DNA of 57,648 nt, taken from assembly GCA_903907925.1 (NCBI GenBank), contig CAIVQB010000121.1, positions 1 to 57,648 of the forward strand, written 5' to 3'. Numbering within the stretch: position 1 is the stretch's first letter; the number at the start of each line of letters is the position of its first letter. The translations under genes were made by a program, and so were the position numbers. Shown piece by piece: positions 779-54,145 of the stretch. The notes under the pieces are model-generated. The model saw nothing but the letters and a program-made list of their open reading frames with translations. It made no database searches and had not been told where the DNA came from. Source of the stretch: an uncultured Verrucomicrobiota bacterium. Its GTDB lineage: Bacteria; Verrucomicrobiota; Verrucomicrobiia; Limisphaerales; UBA9464.

Positions 779-1584
779 GGCTCGGCCTTTCTGGAGGTGG
801 CATGCCGTTCTAGCCACAGAATGTCCCGATTGCCTGGTGCGGGTTGATCGTTTCGGTTGGGGTTCGATCGAAGGAAATCTAGCCAATGATGGATTTCGAC
901 GTGTCCATCCGCGAATGAACAAGTACCCCCTCGTTGATGTAGGGTTGCCGTCTGATCCCTGAGCATCCACGACGACGGATCGTCCTCCCGGAAATCCCAC
1001 TGCTGAGAGAAGGCACCGTCGTTGATGGTTTCCGCCCGTTCTTCGACGACCGACAGCAACTCCGACGGAGACAAGCTCACAAAATCGCTTCGCTTCCGGT
1101 ACGATTTCGCGACCGGGGAATCCACAGGCGAGCCGATGAAGCCGTTGATCGAGAATGTCCGCACCCTGAGCTGTGTCGCCCCACCCACTTTCGTTGGCCG
1201 GGTTGCAGGACATCTCCAGATTCCCGGAGTGCCGATGTAGCTCCCCAGGAGCGACCGTTGGAGAAAAAGAAGGTTCGTGCAGTCGGGTCCGGGCAGACCC
1301 AGCCAGCCTTCGACCCATGTCTCGCCGAGCAGTAGTCCCTGGCCGTCCTTGTTCGGAGGCACCGAATCCGAATGGTCGTCGCAGTAGAGGACGAACGCCA
1401 AACTGAGCTGCCGTGACTGTGACATGCAGCTTGCGCCCAGAGATTTTGCCTGCGCGCCGACGGTCGCAGGAAGGAGGATTCCAGCCAATACTGCAATGAC
1501 AACGATCGCCGCCAGCAGTTCCAACACAGTAAACCCGGTGAGCCTATTCCCCGGGCGTGTTGTATGCAAATCAGTGCGCTTCAT
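775..1584 (-). CDS. Type II/IV prepilin-like protein, H-X9-DG type
   Basis: 269 residues. A class III prepilin signal GFTVLELL starts at residue 17, giving cleavage before F18 with Glu at mature position 5, followed by a hydrophobic helix (AAIVVIAVLAGILLP). The C-terminal part has His, nine residues, then Asp-Gly (HQRGGTCSFADG), the H-X9-DG signature typical of the large pseudopilin-like families of planctomycetes and verrucomicrobia. Such proteins are processed by a prepilin peptidase and displayed on, or assembled at, the envelope; the exact role is unknown. A purine-rich GAAGGAGTGG lies about 25 bases before the ATG, rather far for a ribosome site. First gene of a coupled trio with the GtrA-like gene. 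Confidence 0.85.
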   Translation of the reverse strand: MKRTDLHTTRPGNRLTGFTVLELLAAIVVIAVLAGILLPATVGAQAKSLGASCMSQSRQLSLAFVLYCDDHSDSVPPNKDGQGLLLGETWVEGWLGLPGPDCTNLLFLQRSLLGSYIGTPGIWRCPATRPTKVGGATQLRVRTFSINGFIGSPVDSPVAKSYRKRSDFVSLSPSELLSVVEERAETINDGAFSQQWDFREDDPSSWMLRDQTATLHQRGGTCSFADGHVEIHHWLDFLRSNPNRNDQPAPGNRDILWLERHATSRKAEP

Positions 1585-1771
1585 CTGCCAAAATGGGAAG
1601 AACCACTCCTTCTAAACAATCGTATCGAAAACCTCGCTGAGAGCCTTCGTTGGTGAATGACGAAGAGGCACATGTTCGAATGTGTATTGACGGTATCGAC
1701 ACCGATGGACTATGCCAATTGTGCGCTGCATACTCAGGTGCCAATGTCGCTCAGGGACCGTAATCTCGGTA

Positions 1772-1799
1772 TTGACACTATAACGTTACGCGATATACA
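1772..1799 (+). promoter_or_regulatory. Sigma-70-like promoter for the PadR gene
   Basis: TTGACA at 1772-1777, a 16-base spacer, then TATACA at 1794-1799. Transcription would start near 1806, only two or three bases before the GTG at 1809, so the padR mRNA may be leaderless. No Shine-Dalgarno sequence is visible before that GTG. The surrounding ATATACATGT is also a reasonable place for a PadR autoregulatory operator. Confidence 0.5.
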
Positions 1800-1808
1800 T
1801 GTGGCCGT

Positions 1809-2177
1809 GTGAGAAGAAGGAAATTCAATCCGGAGAGTGAACTCCCCCTGTCGCCGGCGGTGTTCCACATCCTGCTTTCGCTGGCTGACGGCGAAAGGCA
1901 CGGCTACGCCATCATGCAGGATGTCGCGGAAGCCACCGGGGAGCAGATGGGTCCCGGAACTCTTTATGGTGCGATCAAGCGCCTTCTGGTCGCCCGCTGG
2001 ATTGAGGAGGCCGAGGAACGTCCCGATCCGAAACTGGATGACCAGCGCCGCCGCTACTATCGCCTGACGTCTGATGGACATCGGGTGATGGAATCGGAGG
2101 CGCAACGCATGGCCAGACTGGTGGCACTGGCGCGAGCTCGCGGCGTGGGGCGTCCTTTTGTGCTAAAGCCGGCGTGA
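1809..2177 (+). CDS. PadR-family transcriptional regulator
   Basis: 122 residues with a PadR winged-helix domain over nearly the whole length: LSPAVFHILLSLADGERHGYAIMQDV, then GTLYGAIKRLL (recognition helix region) and the wing RRRYYRLTSDGHRVME. PadR proteins are usually repressors that respond to small molecules and often control the adjacent membrane-protein gene. The start is a GTG, chosen because the conserved domain begins about 15 residues later and no in-frame ATG precedes it. The next gene follows within 54 bases, or overlaps if its GTG at 2174 is used. Confidence 0.88.
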   Translation: MRRRKFNPESELPLSPAVFHILLSLADGERHGYAIMQDVAEATGEQMGPGTLYGAIKRLLVARWIEEAEERPDPKLDDQRRRYYRLTSDGHRVMESEAQRMARLVALARARGVGRPFVLKPA

Positions 2178-2230
2178 TCCTCCGACAATTCCCTTGCCAG
2201 TCATCCCTGATCCGAAGCTTCCAATTCTCA

Positions 2231-3145
2231 ATGAACACTCCCGCAAATCCCCCACCGAAGCGTGCAGAACGGCTGTATCGGCTCCTTTTGAAGGCTTATC
2301 CCGCGGAGTTCCGCCGCGAATTCGAAGAGAAACTGGTCCAGTTGTTTCTCGATCAACACCGCGATGCCACCGGGGGCGGATCACGATCCGCGCCGTTGGG
2401 ATTCTGGGTGCGCACGCTGAAGGACACCACTCGCTCGGCCAGCCGGGAGCATCTGGATCAATTGAGAACGACGCTGACCGGGGCGAGCCCGGGAACGTTG
2501 CTGCTCCACTCGTTCCGCACTCCGTGGAGGGGATTTTCCGTCACCTTTGCTGCCGGAGTCGTGATCACTTTGGTGCAGTTGGGAACTGTCCAGCCGGCGT
2601 ATATGAGTACTGCGCGAGCGGTGATCAACGGTCGAAACGATTCATTGGCGGCGTTCGATCCGCATCAACGCCAAGTCGTCGTCGATGCGCTGGCCTCTGA
2701 CGGAAATATGGGTGAAGTCGCTCGCGCTTTAAATCTTTCCGTGCGGTGGGGAAATTCCGCCGGCGAACGTCCGCTGGTGGATTCGATTCACCGGCTCCAC
2801 CGGGGCCTTGAGATTCGAGGCTATCGGAATACAGCGCTCGTGGAGGTCTCTTACTTTGGTGGAAATGCGGTGGAGAATGCCGAAATCGCCAACCAAATTC
2901 TGACAAGCTACATCGTGACCCGCGGGGAAGCGCTTGCTCAGGGAAGAACCGATTCCGCTGAAATCAGCATCATTGATCAGGCGCTTCCGGGGAGACTTTT
3001 AGTTCGAGGCCATCGCGGTGTTATGACTGTCCGGGGGCTGGTTTTGAGCGGTTTGACGGGTCTTCTGGCGGCCGCCGGCATTGCAGTCCTGCGACTATTC
3101 TTTCCATCGACCTGGGTTGAGCATGGAACCCCGAGACTAAGTTGA
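2231..3145 (+). CDS. Membrane protein: permease-prefix plus Wzz-like domain
   Basis: 304 residues in this form. Residues 12-85 (RAERLYRLLLKAYPAEFRREFEE and onward) resemble the cytoplasmic prefix found on MacB-type permeases next to PadR genes. Then come a membrane helix at about 101-122 and a region of about 135 residues that reads like a Wzz/chain-length-determinant periplasmic domain (YMSTARAVI, ALNLSV, ALVEVSYFGGNAVENAEIAN, then IIDQALPGR). A second helix lies at about 266-290. No FtsX-type permease domain is present. Partnership with PadR suggests regulated envelope function. A GTG at 2174, overlapping the padR stop as GTGA, is an alternative start. The domain calls are by eye. Confidence 0.6.
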   Translation: MNTPANPPPKRAERLYRLLLKAYPAEFRREFEEKLVQLFLDQHRDATGGGSRSAPLGFWVRTLKDTTRSASREHLDQLRTTLTGASPGTLLLHSFRTPWRGFSVTFAAGVVITLVQLGTVQPAYMSTARAVINGRNDSLAAFDPHQRQVVVDALASDGNMGEVARALNLSVRWGNSAGERPLVDSIHRLHRGLEIRGYRNTALVEVSYFGGNAVENAEIANQILTSYIVTRGEALAQGRTDSAEISIIDQALPGRLLVRGHRGVMTVRGLVLSGLTGLLAAAGIAVLRLFFPSTWVEHGTPRLS

Positions 3146-3442
3146 CCCACTGAAGCACCGGAGACCTCCCGTTGGCGATCCAGACCTGTGATCGTCGCAT
3201 CGCGCCTCAAAGCGGGAGGGCAGGTTTGGGCCTCCGCCAGGTCTTGGACTGCGGTGGCAGAGCGAAGCGTCGACACCGCTATCGAGTCCGAGTGTGGCGA
3301 AACACCGCTGATGCACCGCACGCCCTGAATCAGGCGGACCACCCACGCCATCTCTGCGTGCCATGCCGAGACCAAAGCGGCATGGCGCTGCGCTCCAAAG
3401 GATGCGCGATGGCCTTCTGTGGAGTGCCGCGGCTTTGCCTTC
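3146..3442. other. Intergenic region built of dispersed repeats
   Basis: No gene is supported here. The stretch consists of repeat-family units described separately (3241-3330 and 3372-3445). Short ORFs in it, such as the antisense one at 3137-3364, are reading frames of the repeat itself: a similar peptide appears antisense in the matching repeat near 57420. Confidence 0.6.
3241..3330 (+). repeat. Long copy of dispersed repeat family A
   Basis: The core GCGGTGGCAGAGCGAAGCG at 3251-3269 runs on into TCGACACCGCT and is flanked by sequence matching 57386-57482 over roughly 90 bases. The matches include GTCGACACCGCT, AACACCGC and TGCACCGC at the same spacing. GCGGTG and CACCGC can pair around the core, so the unit can fold as a hairpin. 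Confidence 0.75.
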
Positions 3443-3445
3443 TCA
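3372..3445 (-). repeat. Degenerate, partly inverted copies of repeat family A
   Basis: AAAGCGGCATGGCGCTGCGCTCC at about 3374-3395 is the inverse-strand form of the family, and TGTGGAGTGCCGCGGC at about 3418 begins a further diverged direct copy. The second copy runs into the 3' end of the SAM-hydroxide adenosyltransferase homologue gene. Confidence 0.45.
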
Positions 3446-4363
3446 ACGCGCCGCAGGTCCCGTCGGCCGGCTGACTTCGAAGGTCCAGTCGGGTCCGCTG
3501 CCGATGTGATGGGCGGCGGCGAAGTTGCCCTGATTGAGCGCGACCGCGACCTCCAGCAGGCTGTTGACGAACAGCACCGGCTGGCCGATCGGTACGGCGC
3601 CGAATGTTTCACCGAACGGGACCCGGCCCTGCCACACCGTCTTTCCGCCATGACCGATGCGGACTTGAAACGACTCGCCCACGACAGGGTTCAATTCCTT
3701 GAACAATCGCTTGGGCAGGTTCGACCAGACGTTGCCGTATTGGACATCCAACACCGGAATGGAACCGATCAACCGGTCGCCGACCCGGTGCGCGTGCTCG
3801 TACAGCAGGCGGATCACATCGTTCGTCATCCGGACGCCGCAGTCTTGGAATTCCAGCCGCCCGGTCGCCAGTCGTGCGCCCACGTAGGCGAACAAATCGC
3901 GCCCATGAAACGTGTAACTCTCCTCGCTCCCCTTCAATCGCTGCCGTGCGATGTCAATCACTCGAACTTCGGACAAGCCCGGTGATTCGGCGAGAAAGGT
4001 CAGGCTCCCGTTGTCTGGCGTGACGATGAACTGTCCGCTCGTCGTGCGCGCGACAACGGCCCGGCGCTCGGTGCCAACGCCGGGATCCACCACATTCACG
4101 AAGACCGTGCCGGCCGGCCAGTAGGCCACCGTCTGCTTCAGGCGGAAGGCCGCTTCCCAGATATTGTAGGCCGGAATCTCATGAGTGAGATCGAACTGCC
4201 GCAGATCCGGGTCCACGCCGTACGCGACACCCTTCATCGCCGAGACCGCGCCGTCCTTCAGACCGAAATCAGTCTGAAACACCAGCGCCGCCGCAGAGGC
4301 AACGCCGCATTCCACGAACACGGCCACCATCACAACGACCCACCCTCGTAACCCACGCATCAT
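3443..4363 (-). CDS. Exported SAM hydroxide adenosyltransferase homologue (DUF62)
   Basis: 306 residues. The body matches the S-adenosyl-L-methionine hydroxide adenosyltransferase/fluorinase family: VFQTDFGLKDG with the conserved Asp, DLTHEIP with a conserved His, VNVVDPGVGTERRAV, and FIVTPDNGSLTF, then a C-terminal barrel-like domain. Family enzymes cleave SAM to adenosine and methionine. The N-terminus (MRGLRGWVVVMVAVFVECGVASAA) reads as a cleavable signal peptide, which is odd for an enzyme using a cytoplasmic substrate. The ATG at 4363 is preferred because the signal peptide starts there; an adjacent ATG at 4360 is equally possible. The 3' end runs into a repeat copy. Confidence 0.82.
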   Translation of the reverse strand: MMRGLRGWVVVMVAVFVECGVASAAALVFQTDFGLKDGAVSAMKGVAYGVDPDLRQFDLTHEIPAYNIWEAAFRLKQTVAYWPAGTVFVNVVDPGVGTERRAVVARTTSGQFIVTPDNGSLTFLAESPGLSEVRVIDIARQRLKGSEESYTFHGRDLFAYVGARLATGRLEFQDCGVRMTNDVIRLLYEHAHRVGDRLIGSIPVLDVQYGNVWSNLPKRLFKELNPVVGESFQVRIGHGGKTVWQGRVPFGETFGAVPIGQPVLFVNSLLEVAVALNQGNFAAAHHIGSGPDWTFEVSRPTGPAAR

Positions 4364-4481
4364 TGATGAAGAATGACGGAGGATGTCCGAGCCGTCGAGT
4401 GCGTGTGAGGAGCGCGATCCTTTTGCGCATTGGAATCCCCGCTGCGCGTTTCATTCCACCGAAGGCTTCAGCTGAAAATAG

Positions 4482-4539
4482 CCCAGCGTTTCAACGCTGG
4501 GATGGGCGATCCCTCGGGATTCCAAGTCCCGTCAGGGAC
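4482..4539. repeat. Palindromic intergenic repeat (two hairpins)
   Basis: A perfect inverted repeat CCCAGCGTT-TC-AACGCTGGG at 4482-4501 is followed by GTCCC-GTCA-GGGAC at 4526-4539. Paired units of this kind, with TCCCGTCAGGGACG, are frequent REP-like elements in verrucomicrobial genomes. It sits between two minus-strand genes and might also act as a transcription or mRNA-stability barrier between them. Confidence 0.65.
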
Positions 4540-4559
4540 GGCAGTACTCCATCGTGAAC

Positions 4560-5363
4560 CTACCGCTCAATCGTCACGGTTAGGAGATACGTGTGGAGCG
4601 GGCCACCTTTTTCCGTCACCCCCGATACAGCCAGGAAATGGCGGCCGCCCTGTTTGAACTTCCACGTCAAAATGGAATCACGTCCGGCCCCTGCGCCGTC
4701 GTCGTTGACGGCCACGATCTGGCCTAGTTCGGAATACAGCGTCAGGGATGAATCGAGCGACGAACCCAATCGGTCCGCCTGAATCTCCGCGCGCAACGTC
4801 GCGCCCGCCTCCGCTCGGAAGGTGAAGACATCGACGTCGGTGGGACTGTCGATGGTTCCCAGCACGGTCTGGCCCGAGCGAATTTCCTGGGACTGACGGA
4901 ATCCATTGTTGGGTTCGATTTCCGCAATCAATTGACCCTTGGGAAAAACCACCAATGGATGCGGAGAGCTGATGCCATCGGGTGTCACCACGGTGAACAG
5001 AATTCGTGAAACGTCTGCGGACTCCCGCGCCCGCGTGGAAACGACGAGGCGATGATCGCCGACCTTGTTGGTATCCATTCCCTCCGGTACCGCCACCCCA
5101 CCTCGTTCCTTGATTTCGGACGACACCGCTCCGTCTGCACCGCCGATTTCAACCCGCGTTGCGTTGGTCAGGTTCAATCCGCGCATGGTGATGGAGCCCG
5201 TGCCGCCCGCCTCGAGGGCGAGCGGTTGGAGCAGCACGATGCGCGGCGGAATGGGTTTTGCCGGGGCGGGTTTGGTCTCATCGGCCCCAGTTGCCGAAAC
5301 CGCGGTGAACATCAGGCCGAGGAAAACGGGGCAGGTGGCGCCGGATCGAGTGCGGTTCAACAT
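4560..5363 (-). CDS. Exported protein with PPC domain
   Basis: 267 residues. A signal peptide (CPVFLGLMFTAVSATGADE) is followed by a Pro/Lys linker, then an IPT/TIG-like immunoglobulin-type domain (VLLQPLALEAGGTGSITMRG, residues about 43-150). The C-terminal part is a bacterial pre-peptidase C-terminal (PPC) domain: IAEIEPNNGFRQSQEI, GTIDSPTDVDVFTFRAEAG, LDSSLTLYSELGQIVAVND, HTYLLTVTI. PPC domains are beta-sandwich modules in secreted proteins and are common in planctomycetes and verrucomicrobia. No catalytic domain is present. The ATG at 5363 is chosen for the signal peptide; longer in-frame ORF sequence to 5687 would overlap the ligA 5' region. Confidence 0.75.
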   Translation of the reverse strand: MLNRTRSGATCPVFLGLMFTAVSATGADETKPAPAKPIPPRIVLLQPLALEAGGTGSITMRGLNLTNATRVEIGGADGAVSSEIKERGGVAVPEGMDTNKVGDHRLVVSTRARESADVSRILFTVVTPDGISSPHPLVVFPKGQLIAEIEPNNGFRQSQEIRSGQTVLGTIDSPTDVDVFTFRAEAGATLRAEIQADRLGSSLDSSLTLYSELGQIVAVNDDGAGAGRDSILTWKFKQGGRHFLAVSGVTEKGGPLHTYLLTVTIER

Positions 5364-5369
5364 GAATGA

Positions 5370-7586
<2,217 letters not shown>

Positions 7587-45203: not shown

Positions 45204-46067
45204 ATGCCCCGGAACCCGTTGCCTTCAACCCGCACCCTGCTGGTGCTGGGGCGTGCTTCGAACCTTCCAACCGTGTGGTCGAATTGTGTCGCCGGATGGT
45301 GGATGGGCGGCGGTGGGGGTTTGTTCACCCTGCTCCAACTCTGCCTGGGCGGGACGCTGCTGTACCTCGGTGGGATGTATTTGAACGACGCCATGGATGC
45401 AGCGTTTGACCGGCAACACCGGCGCGAACGGCCGATCCCGTCCGGGGCCATCGACGAAGCCCTGGTGTGGCAGTTGGGATCCGGTTTGATCGCCGCGGGG
45501 TGGCTGCTGCTGGCGGTGTTGGGATGGGACACTGCCCTGCTCGCGACCTTGCTCGTGGTGGCGGTTCTGGTTTACGACGCCGTTCACAAGGCAGTCACCT
45601 TTTCGCCGGTGCTGATGGCGGCCTGCCGATTCTTTCTGCTGCTGGCGGCGGCTTCGGCCGGTGCTGATGGCGTGACCGGGCTGTCGATCTGGAATGCCTT
45701 TGGCCTGGCGGGGTGGATTGTGGGATTGAGCTATGTCGCGCGCCGCGAGAGCACCACCGGCCGCCTGCGCCGCTGGCCGCTGGCGGCTCTGCTGCTGCCG
45801 CTGTTCTTCGCTGCATTGTTCAACAACGGTGAATGGTTTTGGCGCGCCGCGGGCGTGGCCGCACTCGTCCTGGCATGGACCGGTTGGTGCCTGCGCCACA
45901 CGTTGGTGCCGGCGGGTCGGAACCTCGGATTGACGGTGTCCGGCCTGCTGGCGGGGATCTGCCTGGTCGACTGGCTGTCGGTCATACCGTCGACATCGGG
46001 TGGCCTGCTGTTCCTTGCCTTCTTCGGGCTGGCGTTGCTGGGACAACGATTCATTCCGGCAACCTGA
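45204..46067 (+). CDS. UbiA-family prenyltransferase
   Basis: 287 residues with seven to nine membrane helices. First Asp-rich motif NDAMDAAFD at residues 61-69, second motif YDAVHK in the VLVYDAVHKAVTFSP segment, which lacks the usual second Asp pair. It transfers prenyl groups to an aromatic or other acceptor in quinone, haem or lipid synthesis; which one is unclear. The start ATG 45204 is preferred since the family begins soon before the first helix; the ORF extends to 45114. It diverges from the PVC-cytochrome gene by 115 bases. Confidence 0.83.
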   Translation: MPRNPLPSTRTLLVLGRASNLPTVWSNCVAGWWMGGGGGLFTLLQLCLGGTLLYLGGMYLNDAMDAAFDRQHRRERPIPSGAIDEALVWQLGSGLIAAGWLLLAVLGWDTALLATLLVVAVLVYDAVHKAVTFSPVLMAACRFFLLLAAASAGADGVTGLSIWNAFGLAGWIVGLSYVARRESTTGRLRRWPLAALLLPLFFAALFNNGEWFWRAAGVAALVLAWTGWCLRHTLVPAGRNLGLTVSGLLAGICLVDWLSVIPSTSGGLLFLAFFGLALLGQRFIPAT

Positions 46068-46109: not shown

Positions 46110-46138
46110 GACACTGATTTCACGGATTCACACGGATT
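46110..46138 (+). repeat. Solitary CACGGATT-type repeat
   Basis: 29-base copy of the repeat flanking the GxxExxY gene, starting GACACTGATTTCACGGATTC. It matches the 53149-53177 arm (reverse complement) at 27 of 29 bases and the 52734-52762 arm at 25 of 29. It lies between the UbiA-like and shikimate kinase genes, with no gene of its own, so it resembles a non-autonomous or remnant copy. Confidence 0.85.
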
Positions 46139-46255
46139 CATGAAGAACTGATCGGATCCGGTTCATCCGGTCCATCCTGCCTGAATTTCTTCATCGCGAC
46201 CATCCCTGGCAAGTTCGGCATTCATTCCGCGTGCCCGCGAGGCTAGTCTGTCCCC

Positions 46256-46792
46256 GTGCCTTCCGGTCGCCAGATCCGCAACATCGCCCTGATTGGGTTC
46301 ATGGGTGCCGGGAAGACCACGGTCGGGCATCTGCTGGCGGAGGTCATGGGATTTGAACTGATCGACACCGACCGGGTGATTGAGAAGCGGACCCATCGCC
46401 GGATCCAGGACATCTTCGCGATGGATGGCGAGGCCGCTTTTCGCGCATTGGAAAACGAGCTGGTGCTCGAGCTGGAATCGGCCAATCGGGTGGTGATTTC
46501 CACCGGAGGAGGCCTGGTGATCAATCCGGCAAACATGGAGAGCCTCCGCCAACATTCCCTCGTGACGTGTTTGTGGGCCTCCCCGGAAACGATCTTTGAG
46601 CGGGTCAAATCCCAGACCCATCGGCCCTTGCTCAATGCACCCGATCCGTTGGGAAAAATCCGCGACCTTCTGCTCCAGCGTGCGCCGTTTTACAAGGAGG
46701 CGGACCTTTTGGTTGGTGTGGATTTTCGGGCGCCGCAGGAAACGGTGCGGCACATCGCGGCGGCGTTCGCGCGGGCCTCGGCGCTTTTTTGA
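46256..46792 (+). CDS. aroK: Shikimate kinase
   Basis: 178 residues. ATP-binding GFMGAGKTT near residue 14, then LIDTDRVIEKR (shikimate-binding Asp), FRALENELV and STGGGLV, and a RPLLNAPDPLGKIRDLLLQR lid segment. It phosphorylates shikimate in aromatic amino-acid synthesis. GTG start at 46256, supported by the short N-terminus before the beta-strand. The next gene queG starts 7 bases later on the same strand. Confidence 0.95.
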   Translation: MPSGRQIRNIALIGFMGAGKTTVGHLLAEVMGFELIDTDRVIEKRTHRRIQDIFAMDGEAAFRALENELVLELESANRVVISTGGGLVINPANMESLRQHSLVTCLWASPETIFERVKSQTHRPLLNAPDPLGKIRDLLLQRAPFYKEADLLVGVDFRAPQETVRHIAAAFARASALF

Positions 46793-52067: not shown

Positions 52068-52733
52068 ATGACTCCCGAATCCATCGCCGCCGCCAACGCA
52101 CAGCTCCGGTCCCTGCCGGCCCTCGAAGTCGTCCGCTGGGCCATCGGACAAGCCGGCGGACGCGCCATCGTTTCCACGAACTTCCGGCCCTACGAAGCGG
52201 TCATTCTCCATCTCGTCACCCAGGTGCAGAAGGACATCCCAGTCCTGTGGGTCGACCACGGATACAACCGGCCCGCGACCTATCTCCACGCTGAGGATCT
52301 CACCCGACGGCTGGGTCTGAACCGGAAGGCGTATCTGCCCCGGCTCACGGCCGCGCACTACGACGCGGTTCACGGTGGGATGCCTGAACCCACGCCCGAA
52401 AACGAGGAGCGGATCAAGGCCTTCAGCACGGTGATGAAGCTGGAGCCGTTCCAGCGCGGCATGAAAGAACTGGCACCCACTGTCTGGCTCACCGCCCTGC
52501 GCCAGGTCCAGAATCCGAACCGCGCCGGCCTCGACATCGTCAGTCCCGACGGCAACTTCGGCGCCCTCAAGGTCAGCCCCGTTTTCTATTGGTCCGACGC
52601 CGAGATGGAAGCCTATCTCCAGCAACATCAACTCCCGAACGAATGGGATTACTTCGATCCGGCCAAGGCGGATGAGAAGCGGGAGTGCGGCCTCCACGCG
52701 GCTTGGGGAGGGAAGGCTGTTGCGAAAACATGA
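52068..52733 (+). CDS. cysH: Phosphoadenylyl-sulfate reductase-like CysH
   Basis: 221 residues. P-loop-like IVSTNFRPYEAVILHL near the N-terminus and the catalytic Cys in KRECGLHAAWGG at the C-terminus. It is the only Cys in the protein, which is the PAPS-reductase pattern; APS reductases have two further Cys pairs for an Fe-S cluster. It reduces PAPS to sulfite with thioredoxin. The stop codon is immediately followed by the left repeat of the GxxExxY cassette. See findings for the absence of an APS kinase. Confidence 0.88.
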   Translation: MTPESIAAANAQLRSLPALEVVRWAIGQAGGRAIVSTNFRPYEAVILHLVTQVQKDIPVLWVDHGYNRPATYLHAEDLTRRLGLNRKAYLPRLTAAHYDAVHGGMPEPTPENEERIKAFSTVMKLEPFQRGMKELAPTVWLTALRQVQNPNRAGLDIVSPDGNFGALKVSPVFYWSDAEMEAYLQQHQLPNEWDYFDPAKADEKRECGLHAAWGGKAVAKT

Positions 52734-52762
52734 GACACGGATTTCACAGATTTTCACGGATT
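52734..52762 (+). repeat. Left inverted repeat arm of the cassette
   Basis: Begins GACACGGATTTCAC at the base after the cysH stop codon and ends TTTCACGGATT. It contains CACGGATT at both ends and a changed middle unit (CACAGATT). It matches the reverse complement of 53149-53177 at 25 of 29 bases. Confidence 0.9.
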
Positions 52763-52769
52763 CCGGAGC

Positions 52770-53144
52770 ATGGCTGAAATCCTCTATCGCGAAGAGACTC
52801 ATCGGTTGATCGGGTTGTGCATGGAGATTCATCGTGAACTGGGACGAGGCCACAGTGAGGTCGTTTACAAGGACGCGCTCGTGGTGGAATTGGCTCGTGC
52901 CGGGATTCCATTTGTCCGGGAGCGGAAATACGAGATCACATACAAAGGTGTCCTTTTGGCCCATCCGTACTTCGCTGATTTCGTTATCGAAGATAAGATC
53001 ATCGTTGAAGCCAAAGCCGTTGAAAGTTTGGTCGATTCCCACGTGAAGCAGGTGTTGAACTATCTGGCTGCTTCGAAGGTGAGACTCGGTCTATTGATTA
53101 ACTTCGGAGGAGAGTCCTTGGATTGGAAAAGGGTGATTCGATAA
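52770..53144 (+). CDS. GxxExxY protein (PD-(D/E)xK nuclease-like)
   Basis: 124 residues. Carries the family hallmark G27-H-S-E30-V-V-Y33 and a nuclease-like core: D70 in HPYFADFVIEDKIIVEAKA, with E80 and K82 as likely metal-binding and catalytic residues (the PD-(D/E)xK pattern). The HRLIGLCMEIHRELG start is typical. The family is common and multicopy in verrucomicrobia, and its function is not established. The gene is framed by inverted CACGGATT repeats and inserted between cysH and cysD. GGAG sits only one base before the ATG, too close for an efficient ribosome site; no better start exists. Confidence 0.9.
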   Translation: MAEILYREETHRLIGLCMEIHRELGRGHSEVVYKDALVVELARAGIPFVRERKYEITYKGVLLAHPYFADFVIEDKIIVEAKAVESLVDSHVKQVLNYLAASKVRLGLLINFGGESLDWKRVIR

Positions 53145-53148
53145 AATC

Positions 53149-53177
53149 AATCCGTGTGAATTCGTGAAATCCGTGTC
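53149..53177 (-). repeat. Right inverted repeat arm of the cassette
   Basis: AATCCGTGTGAATTCGTGAA followed by ATCCGTGTC, beginning 5 bases after the GxxExxY stop. The reverse complement reads GACACGGATTTCACGAATTC then ACACGGATT. Two of the three CACGGATT units are intact. Confidence 0.9.
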
Positions 53178-53206
53178 GTCAGATTCTCTTTAACTACGGT
53201 GTCTCA

Positions 53207-54145
53207 ATGAGCAGTTACCATCTAGACCATCTCCAATACTTGGAGACCGAGGCCATCCACATCATGCGGGAGGTGGCGGCGGAGTTTGAGCGGCCGGCGC
53301 TGCTGTTTTCGGGCGGAAAGGATTCCATCTGCCTCCTGCGCCTCGCCGAGAAGGCCTTCCGTCCGTCGGACATCCCCATGCCGTTTCTCAACGTGGAGAC
53401 GGGTCACGAGTTTCCGGAGTTGATCGAGTTTCGCGATCGCCGCGCGCAGCAGCTCGGGGCCAAGCTGATCGTCCGCACGGTCGACCAGGCCATCGCCAAC
53501 GGCACCGCCATGCCAGCGCCCGGCGAGATCAGCCGCAACAAACTCCAGATCCCCGTGCTGCTCGGCGCCATCGAGGAGTTTCGATTCGATTGCGCCATCG
53601 GCGGCGCCCGGCGTGACGAGGAAAAAGCGCGGGCCAAGGAACGGTTCTTCAGTTTCCGCGACGCCTTCGGCCAGTGGGATCCCAAGAACCAGCGTCCGGA
53701 GATCTGGAACCTCTACAACGCGCGCCTCAACCCGGGCGAAAACATGCGCGTCTTTCCGCTGTCCAACTGGACCGAAATGGACGTGTGGGAATACATCAAG
53801 AAGGAGAAGTTGGAGGTTCCCAACATCTACTTCAGTCACCGACGGGATTGTTTTCGACGAGGCGGCCAGTGGTTGCCGGTGCCTCCGTCCCACACGGACG
53901 CCACCAAACCGGATCCTTATGAAGGCGCCCGGCCCAAATCGAATGAGCCGATCAAGTCCATGGTCGTCCGCGTCCGCACCATTGCCGACATGATCAGCAC
54001 CGGCATGATCGAATCGCCCGCCGACAGCGTGGACGACATCATCGCCGAGGTTTCCGCCGCGCGCGTGACCGAGCGCGGCACGCGCGCCGACGACAAGGCC
54101 AGCGAGGCGGCCATGGAAGACCGCAAAAAGGCGGGGTATTTTTGA
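53207..54145 (+). CDS. cysD: Sulfate adenylyltransferase subunit CysD
   Basis: 312 residues. PP-loop ATPase: FSGGKDSICLLRL near residue 34, FLNVETGHEFPELIEFRD, GGARRDEEKARAKERFFSFR and NWTEMDVWEYI. With CysN it converts sulfate and ATP to APS. The C-terminus (KSMVVRVRTIADMISTGMIE) is normal. It starts 29 bases after the cassette's right repeat and is followed at 105 bases by cysN on the same strand. Confidence 0.95.
   Translation: MSSYHLDHLQYLETEAIHIMREVAAEFERPALLFSGGKDSICLLRLAEKAFRPSDIPMPFLNVETGHEFPELIEFRDRRAQQLGAKLIVRTVDQAIANGTAMPAPGEISRNKLQIPVLLGAIEEFRFDCAIGGARRDEEKARAKERFFSFRDAFGQWDPKNQRPEIWNLYNARLNPGENMRVFPLSNWTEMDVWEYIKKEKLEVPNIYFSHRRDCFRRGGQWLPVPPSHTDATKPDPYEGARPKSNEPIKSMVVRVRTIADMISTGMIESPADSVDDIIAEVSAARVTERGTRADDKASEAAMEDRKKAGYF

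Follow-up and report, generated by a model that had tools for sequence, protein, structure and literature searches.

A GxxExxY Nuclease-Like Gene between Inverted Three-Unit Arms in a Verrucomicrobial cysH–cysD Gap: a Candidate REPIN-Like Mobile Element

The cysH–cysD Locus and Its GxxExxY Protein

The window, i.e., the whole 57,648-nt stretch of verrucomicrobial DNA analyzed here, contains a cysH-like gene (52068..52733, plus strand) and a cysD-like gene (53207..54145, plus strand), which encode proteins with a PAPS reductase domain (by Pfam for the latter, whose match to TIGR02039 scores under the cut-off of that model) and constitute the upstream and downstream borders of an insertion site, respectively. 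The site is occupied by a 444-bp element that comprises a left arm (52734..52762, plus strand), a single GxxExxY open reading frame encoding 124 aa (52770..53144, plus strand), and an inverted right arm (53149..53177, minus strand). The left arm begins directly 3' of the cysH stop codon, and 29 bases lie between the end of the right arm and the cysD ATG at 53207, which confirms the coordinates of the original prediction, namely 29-base inverted repeats with 25 of 29 bases identical and one gene inside. The arm pair (29 nt, 86% complementary, 25/29) is the longer of two inverted pairs found in positions 52500-53500, the other being 13 nt long. The gene also has the predicted lower G+C content (49.7%) compared with cysH (63.5%) and cysD (62.3%).

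Each arm is composed of three CACRRATT-like units spaced 9-10 nt apart, a structure that the original prediction had not noticed. The left arm has the layout GA-CACGGATT-T-CACAGATT-TT-CACGGATT, with the units at 52736-52743 (CACGGATT), 52745-52752 (CACAGATT), and 52755-52762 (CACGGATT), and the right arm, which reads GACACGGATTTCACGAATTCACACGGATT on the minus strand, has the inward layout GA-CACGGATT-T-CACGAATT-CA-CACGGATT. Only three places in the 57.6-kb window reach an arm detector score of at least 32, the two arms and one place at 46112, and the window arms are therefore not a chance occurrence. Inspection by eye revealed no target-site duplication at the element, and neither a GTAG nor a CGTC tag was found at the arm ends, which read GACACGGATT...CACGGATT.

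The encoded protein is a member of the GxxExxY family, with matches to TIGR04256 (E 8.5e-41; 139 bits, cut-off 35) and to PF13366 PDDEXK_3 (E 2.3e-37; 128.4 bits, cut-off 22). PDDEXK_3 is its sole Pfam match, and the profile search returned neither a known transposase family nor the S23p four-helix-bundle family. In a Foldseek search with the AlphaFold2 model (pLDDT 92.6, pTM 0.84), the top match is Cas4 SSO0001 (E 0.005), followed, among others, by an R2 retrotransposon endonuclease, XPB-Bax1, LHK-Exo, and the catalytic domain of I-Bth0305I (3r3p, E 0.033); no match has an E-value of 0.001 or lower. VIA-align likewise places Cas4 SSO0001 on top, as the sole chain with a Z-score of at least 8 (Z 8.8), followed by BamHI (7.5) and others; the best chains include many restriction-endonuclease-like ones, and an fdxN-element excision controlling factor (Z 6.0) and an XisH-family protein (Z 5.7) are also listed. 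The predicted fold is thus PD-(D/E)XK, nearest to Cas4, in agreement with the PD-(D/E)xK-like core stated in the original prediction, and the protein is a predicted nuclease. Cas4/RecB-like nucleases share with it the fold and the order of conserved residues (E, D, ExK, QxxxY), and the QxxxY motif marks the Cas4/RecB type; unlike these nucleases, the GxxExxY protein has 124 aa and one domain.

In 42 aligned sequences, mostly from one subfamily, residues G25, G27, E30, Y33, D70, E80, K82, and Q94 are invariant and Y98 is nearly so; a wider set of 19 sequences shows at least 90% conservation of E80, Q94, and Y98. Among five close homologs, pN/pS ranges from 0.14 to 0.25 with synonymous differences near saturation (0.71-0.86), and the protein is under purifying selection. 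The arms of four of these species, leaving out the fifth (L167), which has a CACGAAT unit, are identical at 25-27 of 29 bases. Judging from these comparisons, both the gene and its arms are either maintained by selection or homogenized.

Inverted Arms at Other GxxExxY Genes and Their Unit Code

PF13366 matches are present in 42 of the 58 relatives, with up to seven in one genome, and GxxExxY matches in 163 of the 288 genomes sampled from the phylum. Inspection by eye of the flanks of 32 loci revealed that most complete genes possess inverted arms built of two or three short units and that the unit differs from locus to locus. In a unit-blind test of 69 complete genes from the relatives with enough flanking sequence, the best inverted matches range from 10 to 61 (median 24) and exceed 25 at 30 genes, compared with a median of 13 and a 99th percentile of 25 for cross-locus pairs (n=1380) and a median of 14 for shifted placements (n=120).

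The association was further analyzed in a set of loci from named genomes, consisting of the best 80 among the matches listed, which covers Verrucomicrobia, Planctomycetes, Desulfobacteraceae, Geobacter, Chloroflexi, Acidobacteria, Bacteroidetes, Alphaproteobacteria, and others, and includes 75 genes flanked by 100 bp or more. A generic triad detector, tried first, proved too strict: it found 74 triads in the named loci (8 after shuffling) and triads on both sides of only 6 genes. A unit detector limited to periods 9-11 with a threshold of 30 recovered both arms at only 8 of the 80 genes, because many CRCNRAG-class arms have a period of 8. After inspection of these loci the detector, which has the CRCNRA part of the unit built in, was widened to periods 8-11. 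With it, inward arms were detected on both sides of 56 of the 75 genes versus 0 of 360 control placements, and an arm on at least one side of 69 versus 10 of 360; arms of the named loci number 2.71 per kb at distances of up to 300 bp from a gene, compared with 0.13 per kb in the remaining sequence. The best-inverted-match test without knowledge of the unit is weaker, with scores of at least 20 at 50 of 76 genes versus 32 of 360 control placements. Since the detector had been widened after the named loci were seen, it was then fixed and applied to 30 previously unseen loci from a separate phylum-level search, where both arms were found at 17 loci (0 of 57 shifted controls) and at least one arm at 22 (4 of 57). 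Among 181 distinct complete proteins, 123 genes have both arms and 155 at least one; this detector found no arm at 26 of the 181 genes, nor at 8 of the 30 hold-out loci. The expectation that most GxxExxY genes are flanked by inverted repeats is thus borne out in all three sets, and the association of these genes with cognate arms is secure.

Several further observations concern the genes themselves. Three loci (L127, L129, and L134) contain open frames of about 266-287 aa with two successive GxxExxY domain matches that score below those of single-domain genes. C-terminal stubs of GxxExxY genes without detectable arms occur at L003 (G000:C147), L121, L122, and L123, and are perhaps old remains. 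A Lentisphaerae contig (L208) carries at 1566-7040 many CACGGAC triple arrays, several of them as inverted pairs, which differ from the unit at its GxxExxY gene (CGCAAAG/CGCCAAG). A search for phage cargo with a one-subfamily alignment retrieved just three relatives among viral contigs, one of which has both arms, and phage cargo was rejected on the basis of this search.

The consensus unit is CRCNRA, which is preset in the detector, plus a seventh base, and its variants include CGCAAAG, CACGAAT, CACAGAT, CGCGGAG, and others. The mean period is near 8 for units ending with G, near 10 for those ending with T, and 9-10 for those ending with A. The two arms of one element differ on average at 0.31 of 7 positions (n=123), compared with 2.33 for randomly paired arms (smallest of 500 pairings 2.06). 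Mapping onto the protein tree of 155 genes requires 11 changes of the seventh base (at least 49 in 300 shuffles, mean 57.6) and 71 changes of the whole unit (at least 115 in 150 shuffles). The whole unit requires 37 changes in the G class (shuffles at least 52) and 20 in the T class, where the lowest value among 150 shuffles is 22; the whole unit therefore tracks the tree clearly in the G class and weakly in the T class. The mismatch between units stays at 2.70-2.75 of 7 for protein identities up to 40% and drops stepwise to 0.33 at 80-90% identity. Gene pairs from the same genome have a mean mismatch of 2.61 of 7 (33 pairs), compared with 2.33 for pairs across genomes (787 pairs) and 1.33 for the cross-genome pairs with a protein identity of at least 50% (69 pairs). 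Since genes of the same genome do not share units, the unit tracks the protein subfamily and not the host. The build of the arm is general; the original prediction needs correction in one respect, namely that the unit is not generally CACGGATT and varies with the protein subfamily. As a minimum, this co-segregation shows that gene and arms are inherited together as one element. Plain co-inheritance could produce such a pattern, and recognition of the unit by the protein is its likely cause.

Two other gene families served as controls. Y1_Tnp genes are present in 52 of the 58 relatives, and the genome of the window has two. For 28 Y1_Tnp genes taken from a much longer list and including both of this genome, GxxExxY-type arms were detected on both sides of none and on one side of two, and a role of RAYT as the mover of these arms is thus unsupported. 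The PF05635 (23S IVS protein) genes at L135-L164 are mostly located between inverted tandem arms of their own with a period of about 7, for example three copies of GGTCAGC. Their best inverted match is at least 18 in 25 of 29 cases, compared with 9.7% of 435 cross pairs and 13 of 55 shifted placements, the best period is 7 in 19 of the 27 tested, and GxxExxY-type arms were found on both sides of none of the 29. Two protein families with no relation to each other are thus each associated with arms of a private class, which speaks for a definition of the arm by the protein.

Occupied and Empty Sites, Gene-Less Copies and Arm Copy Number

The cysH–cysD gap was readable at 45 loci, including L166 and L171, which were added because they bear the gene. 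A GxxExxY gene is present in five of these gaps (3 of 43 without the two additions), with the first unit 0-2 nt 3' of the cysH stop. As had been predicted from the notion of an insertion, empty sites exist: 29 gaps of 0-130 bp have neither the gene nor an arm recognized by this detector, and by eye some of them hold other short repeats of the heptamer kind (e.g., L059, L069, and L070). Four gaps (L051, L056, L071, and L073) contain a PF05635 four-helix-bundle gene, so that the PF05635 genes with their heptamer-type arms constitute a parallel element class using the same gap. Five gaps hold arms only, among which L041 and L061 are complete palindromes, L052 and L054 have one arm each, and L039 has a TTTAACC-type array that is not a GxxExxY-type arm. 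The remaining two are longer gaps at distant paralogs.

Close relatives of the window protein (64-83% identity) are encoded at cysH–cysD in five genomes and at cysD–cysN in L169, and others within the same identity range at another gene pair in L173, L174, and L175, which, from labels read by eye, we take to be LeuA-like and ValS, and elsewhere. One genome (G226) has two such relatives on different contigs. At L120, an internally deleted gene copy has kept both arms, and its pieces are 92.7-100% identical to the complete gene L024 of the same genome; L124 has a C-terminal stub between arms. From their sequences, these two loci may represent routes to gene-less forms.

The genome of the window contains 43 CACRGAT-type arms, 20 in forward and 23 in reverse orientation, of which two belong to the window gene; the reversed control has none. 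This gene is the only complete PF13366 gene of the genome with CACRGAT-type arms; the arms of a second complete gene are of another type, and the third match represents a fragment. From the 43 arm places, 30 loci were taken, 27 of them readable, which correspond to 22 distinct places, as five palindromes were read from both ends. Gene-less palindromes of 74-124 bp with a recognizable right end were found at 16 of the 22 places (17 if a right arm found by the detector is also counted). Their loops resemble each other, with a mean local score of 10.4, compared with 7.0 for the outside flanks and 6.5 for shuffled loops. Two arms with a short loop, dispersed over the genome, is the REPIN layout. 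As side observations, the second GxxExxY gene of this genome (L002, G000:C115:33055-36384) has GAATG/GAATT-type arms, and by eye the loops of the CACGGATT palindromes (L275-L304) hold GAATG/GAATT-like units, such as GAATGAACCGGAT in L275, as if elements were nested.

One gene-less miniature copy, which the original prediction did not mention, is located in the window itself (46110..46184, end approximate, plus strand); it is partly decayed and belongs to the same family as the window arms. It lies between two co-directional genes, one ending at 46067 and the other starting at 46256 (by eye UbiA-like and shikimate-kinase-like), that are 188 bp apart in the window. The same gene pair occurs without an arm in four genomes of the same genus, with gaps of 78 (G007), 81 (G001), 53 (G004), and 52 bp (G003); gaps in G002 and G005 are 926 and 244, longer or misread, and have no arm, and the pair has no match in G006.

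Arm copy number is higher where a complete gene of the respective unit is present, with p-values calculated ignoring relatedness and counting the gene's own arms. For instance, genomes with a complete gene of the CACAGAT unit have 71, 46, 38, 24, and 0 CACAGAT arms, compared with non-zero counts in 5 of 53 other genomes, the highest being 21 (p 3e-6); the CACAGAT label of G010 in this test may be a wrong consensus. Genomes with a fitting gene have 0, 7, 14, 10, 1, and 1 CGCGAAG arms (p 0.001) and 41, 5, 8, 1, 0, and 2 CACGGAT arms (p 0.006), in each case compared with 52 genomes. The presence of a fitting gene does not fully explain the copy number: G024 lacks a PF13366 match yet has 17 CGCGAAG arms, the only gene of G025, with 22 CGCGAAG arms, is CACGGAG-type, and the sole PF13366 match of G007, with its 23 CACGGAT arms, is CACAGAT-type. 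G006 has a window-type gene, yet only 8 strict CACGGAT arms.

Proposed Mechanism and Alternative Explanations

A RAYT gene is itself flanked by the repeats of its own REP family. According to the consulted text of PMC8049555, REPINs are inverted REP doublets duplicated by RAYTs, their singlets are remains, and copy numbers have been compared with and without RAYT; the consulted text of PMC3733652 gives a GTAG or CGTC end tag for most REPs. The GxxExxY system resembles REPIN-RAYT in its gene-less inverted doublets, single repeats as remains, the cognate gene located inside the same repeats, and larger numbers of copies where the gene is present. It differs in having a PD-(D/E)XK nuclease instead of a Y1 HUH tyrosine transposase (PF01797), in arms of three phased units of 7-8 nt with no GTAG or CGTC at the window arm ends, and in that one genome can hold several genes of different unit types. 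Because the HUH enzyme is absent, we do not class the element as REPIN-RAYT despite the same layout; by analogy, it may work like one. With insertion sequences and MITEs it has in common inverted ends, a single gene, internally deleted and gene-less derivatives, and insert-free sites; unlike them, its gene belongs to no known transposase family, and each of its ends is an array of short units, which vary from one relative to another.

The original prediction proposed a minimal element whose protein acts on its own repeats, analogous to RAYT/REP pairs with a nuclease fold, and such action is strongly suggested by the present analysis. We infer arm recognition by the GxxExxY protein, a cutting step, and a copying step, and mobilization by the nuclease is the best-supported mechanism. 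The PD-(D/E)XK nuclease would recognize the three phased units that make up each of its own arms and would probably nick or cut at the paired or folded arms, which would let the element and its gene-less derivatives be copied into new intergenic sites. Gene-less copies with two arms and a short loop would be non-autonomous passengers, and single arms their remains. As the enzyme would have to read the arm, protein and unit would change together, giving many unit types. Altogether, the locus is probably a small selfish REPIN-like mobile element, the nuclease of which acts on its own arms and thereby enables copying.

The same observations can be read as homing-like spread, in which dispersed gene-less palindromes came first, the nuclease cuts an empty one, and the gene is copied in by homologous recombination through the arms; the nuclease would then spread the gene and not the palindromes. 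This reading accommodates the presence in different species of gene-less palindromes (L041 and L061), gene with arms (five gaps), and neither (29 of 45) at cysH–cysD, the far larger number of dispersed arms than of genes, and the homing endonuclease domain of I-Bth0305I (3r3p, E 0.033) in the fold search. We nevertheless consider it unlikely, since the invasion of pre-existing palindromes would mix units and proteins that are found to co-vary, the related loops of the gene-less copies indicate that these spread as units of their own, and the deleted gene copy with both arms kept points from gene to gene-less form. The gene may instead ride between arms and palindromes moved by another enzyme, either RAYT or a host pathway. 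Y1_Tnp genes are indeed common in the relatives (52/58), the PF05635 genes demonstrate that inverted arms can hold other proteins, and some genomes have arms and no fitting gene; we regard this as rather improbable, however, given that none of the 28 Y1_Tnp genes has both arms, that the arms change with GxxExxY while the four-helix-bundle genes use a different arm class, and that the active site of GxxExxY is conserved.

A further alternative is an element that acts at the RNA level, comparable to the 23S rRNA intervening sequences: its arms would pair in the transcript, the insert would be tolerated where the genes on either side are co-transcribed, and RNA would be the substrate of the protein. 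As described in the consulted text of PMC4990558, the Coxiella 23S IVS is a 428-nt insert bounded by inverted repeats, with a small S23p ORF, and is cut by RNase III; its protein family has the parallel arm system described above. The window element has a similar size, inverted-repeat borders, and one small ORF, and PF05635 genes likewise lie between inverted arms, also in the cysH–cysD gap; in contrast, the protein is unrelated, the window element lies outside rRNA, and PF05635 arms are tandem units with a period of about 7, compared with 8-11 for GxxExxY arms, a range that is also that of the detector. Of 129 upstream open frames, 81 lie on the same strand, and in 42 of these 81 cases the arm starts at most 16 nt after the stop codon (an uncontrolled count), as an RNA-level element would have it. 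The opposite strand in the other 48 cases, the DNA or cDNA step needed for gene-less copies to spread, and the nearest folds, which are mostly DNA nucleases, make this explanation very improbable. Finally, the phased repeated units on both sides resemble protein-binding sites, and together with purifying selection on the protein this would suit operator or terminator sites of an immobile gene, such as a self-regulating defense or repair nuclease. With 43 arms in one genome and only two at this gene, presence or absence of the insert at one site, and the same subfamily at several sites, this possibility is barely credible.

To our knowledge, no REP-like or insertion-sequence-like element driven solely by this type of nuclease is known. 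The system belongs to a known kind, in which repeat doublets come with a cognate gene, but its enzyme has no relation to RAYT. GxxExxY appears in the open-access literature searched in passing mentions only, and no description of the arm–gene pairing was found in its titles and the starts of abstracts. A study of heptamer repeats in Beggiatoaceae weighed a repeat-binding protein as a mobile element, and the terms S23 and four-helix are absent from its consulted text (PMC4679880).

More tentatively, and with somewhat less confidence than would balance the doubts, the GxxExxY elements might represent their own class of mobile DNA across many bacterial phyla, in which a single PD-(D/E)XK nuclease reads three helically phased units and the nuclease has diversified along with the unit alphabet to give dozens of private recognition codes; a sizeable share of the short dispersed repeats that lack an explanation in these genomes might stem from these and the four-helix-bundle/heptamer elements combined. 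The many natural pairs in which the unit varies together with the protein could allow the recognition code to be deduced from sequence. The TIGR04256 model names the family simply "GxxExxY protein," and repeats of their own give these widespread genes a testable function. The pairing of GxxExxY genes with repeats explains a set of short dispersed repeats and, if the proposed mechanism is true, adds a nuclease type as the runner of a REP-like or insertion-sequence-like element.
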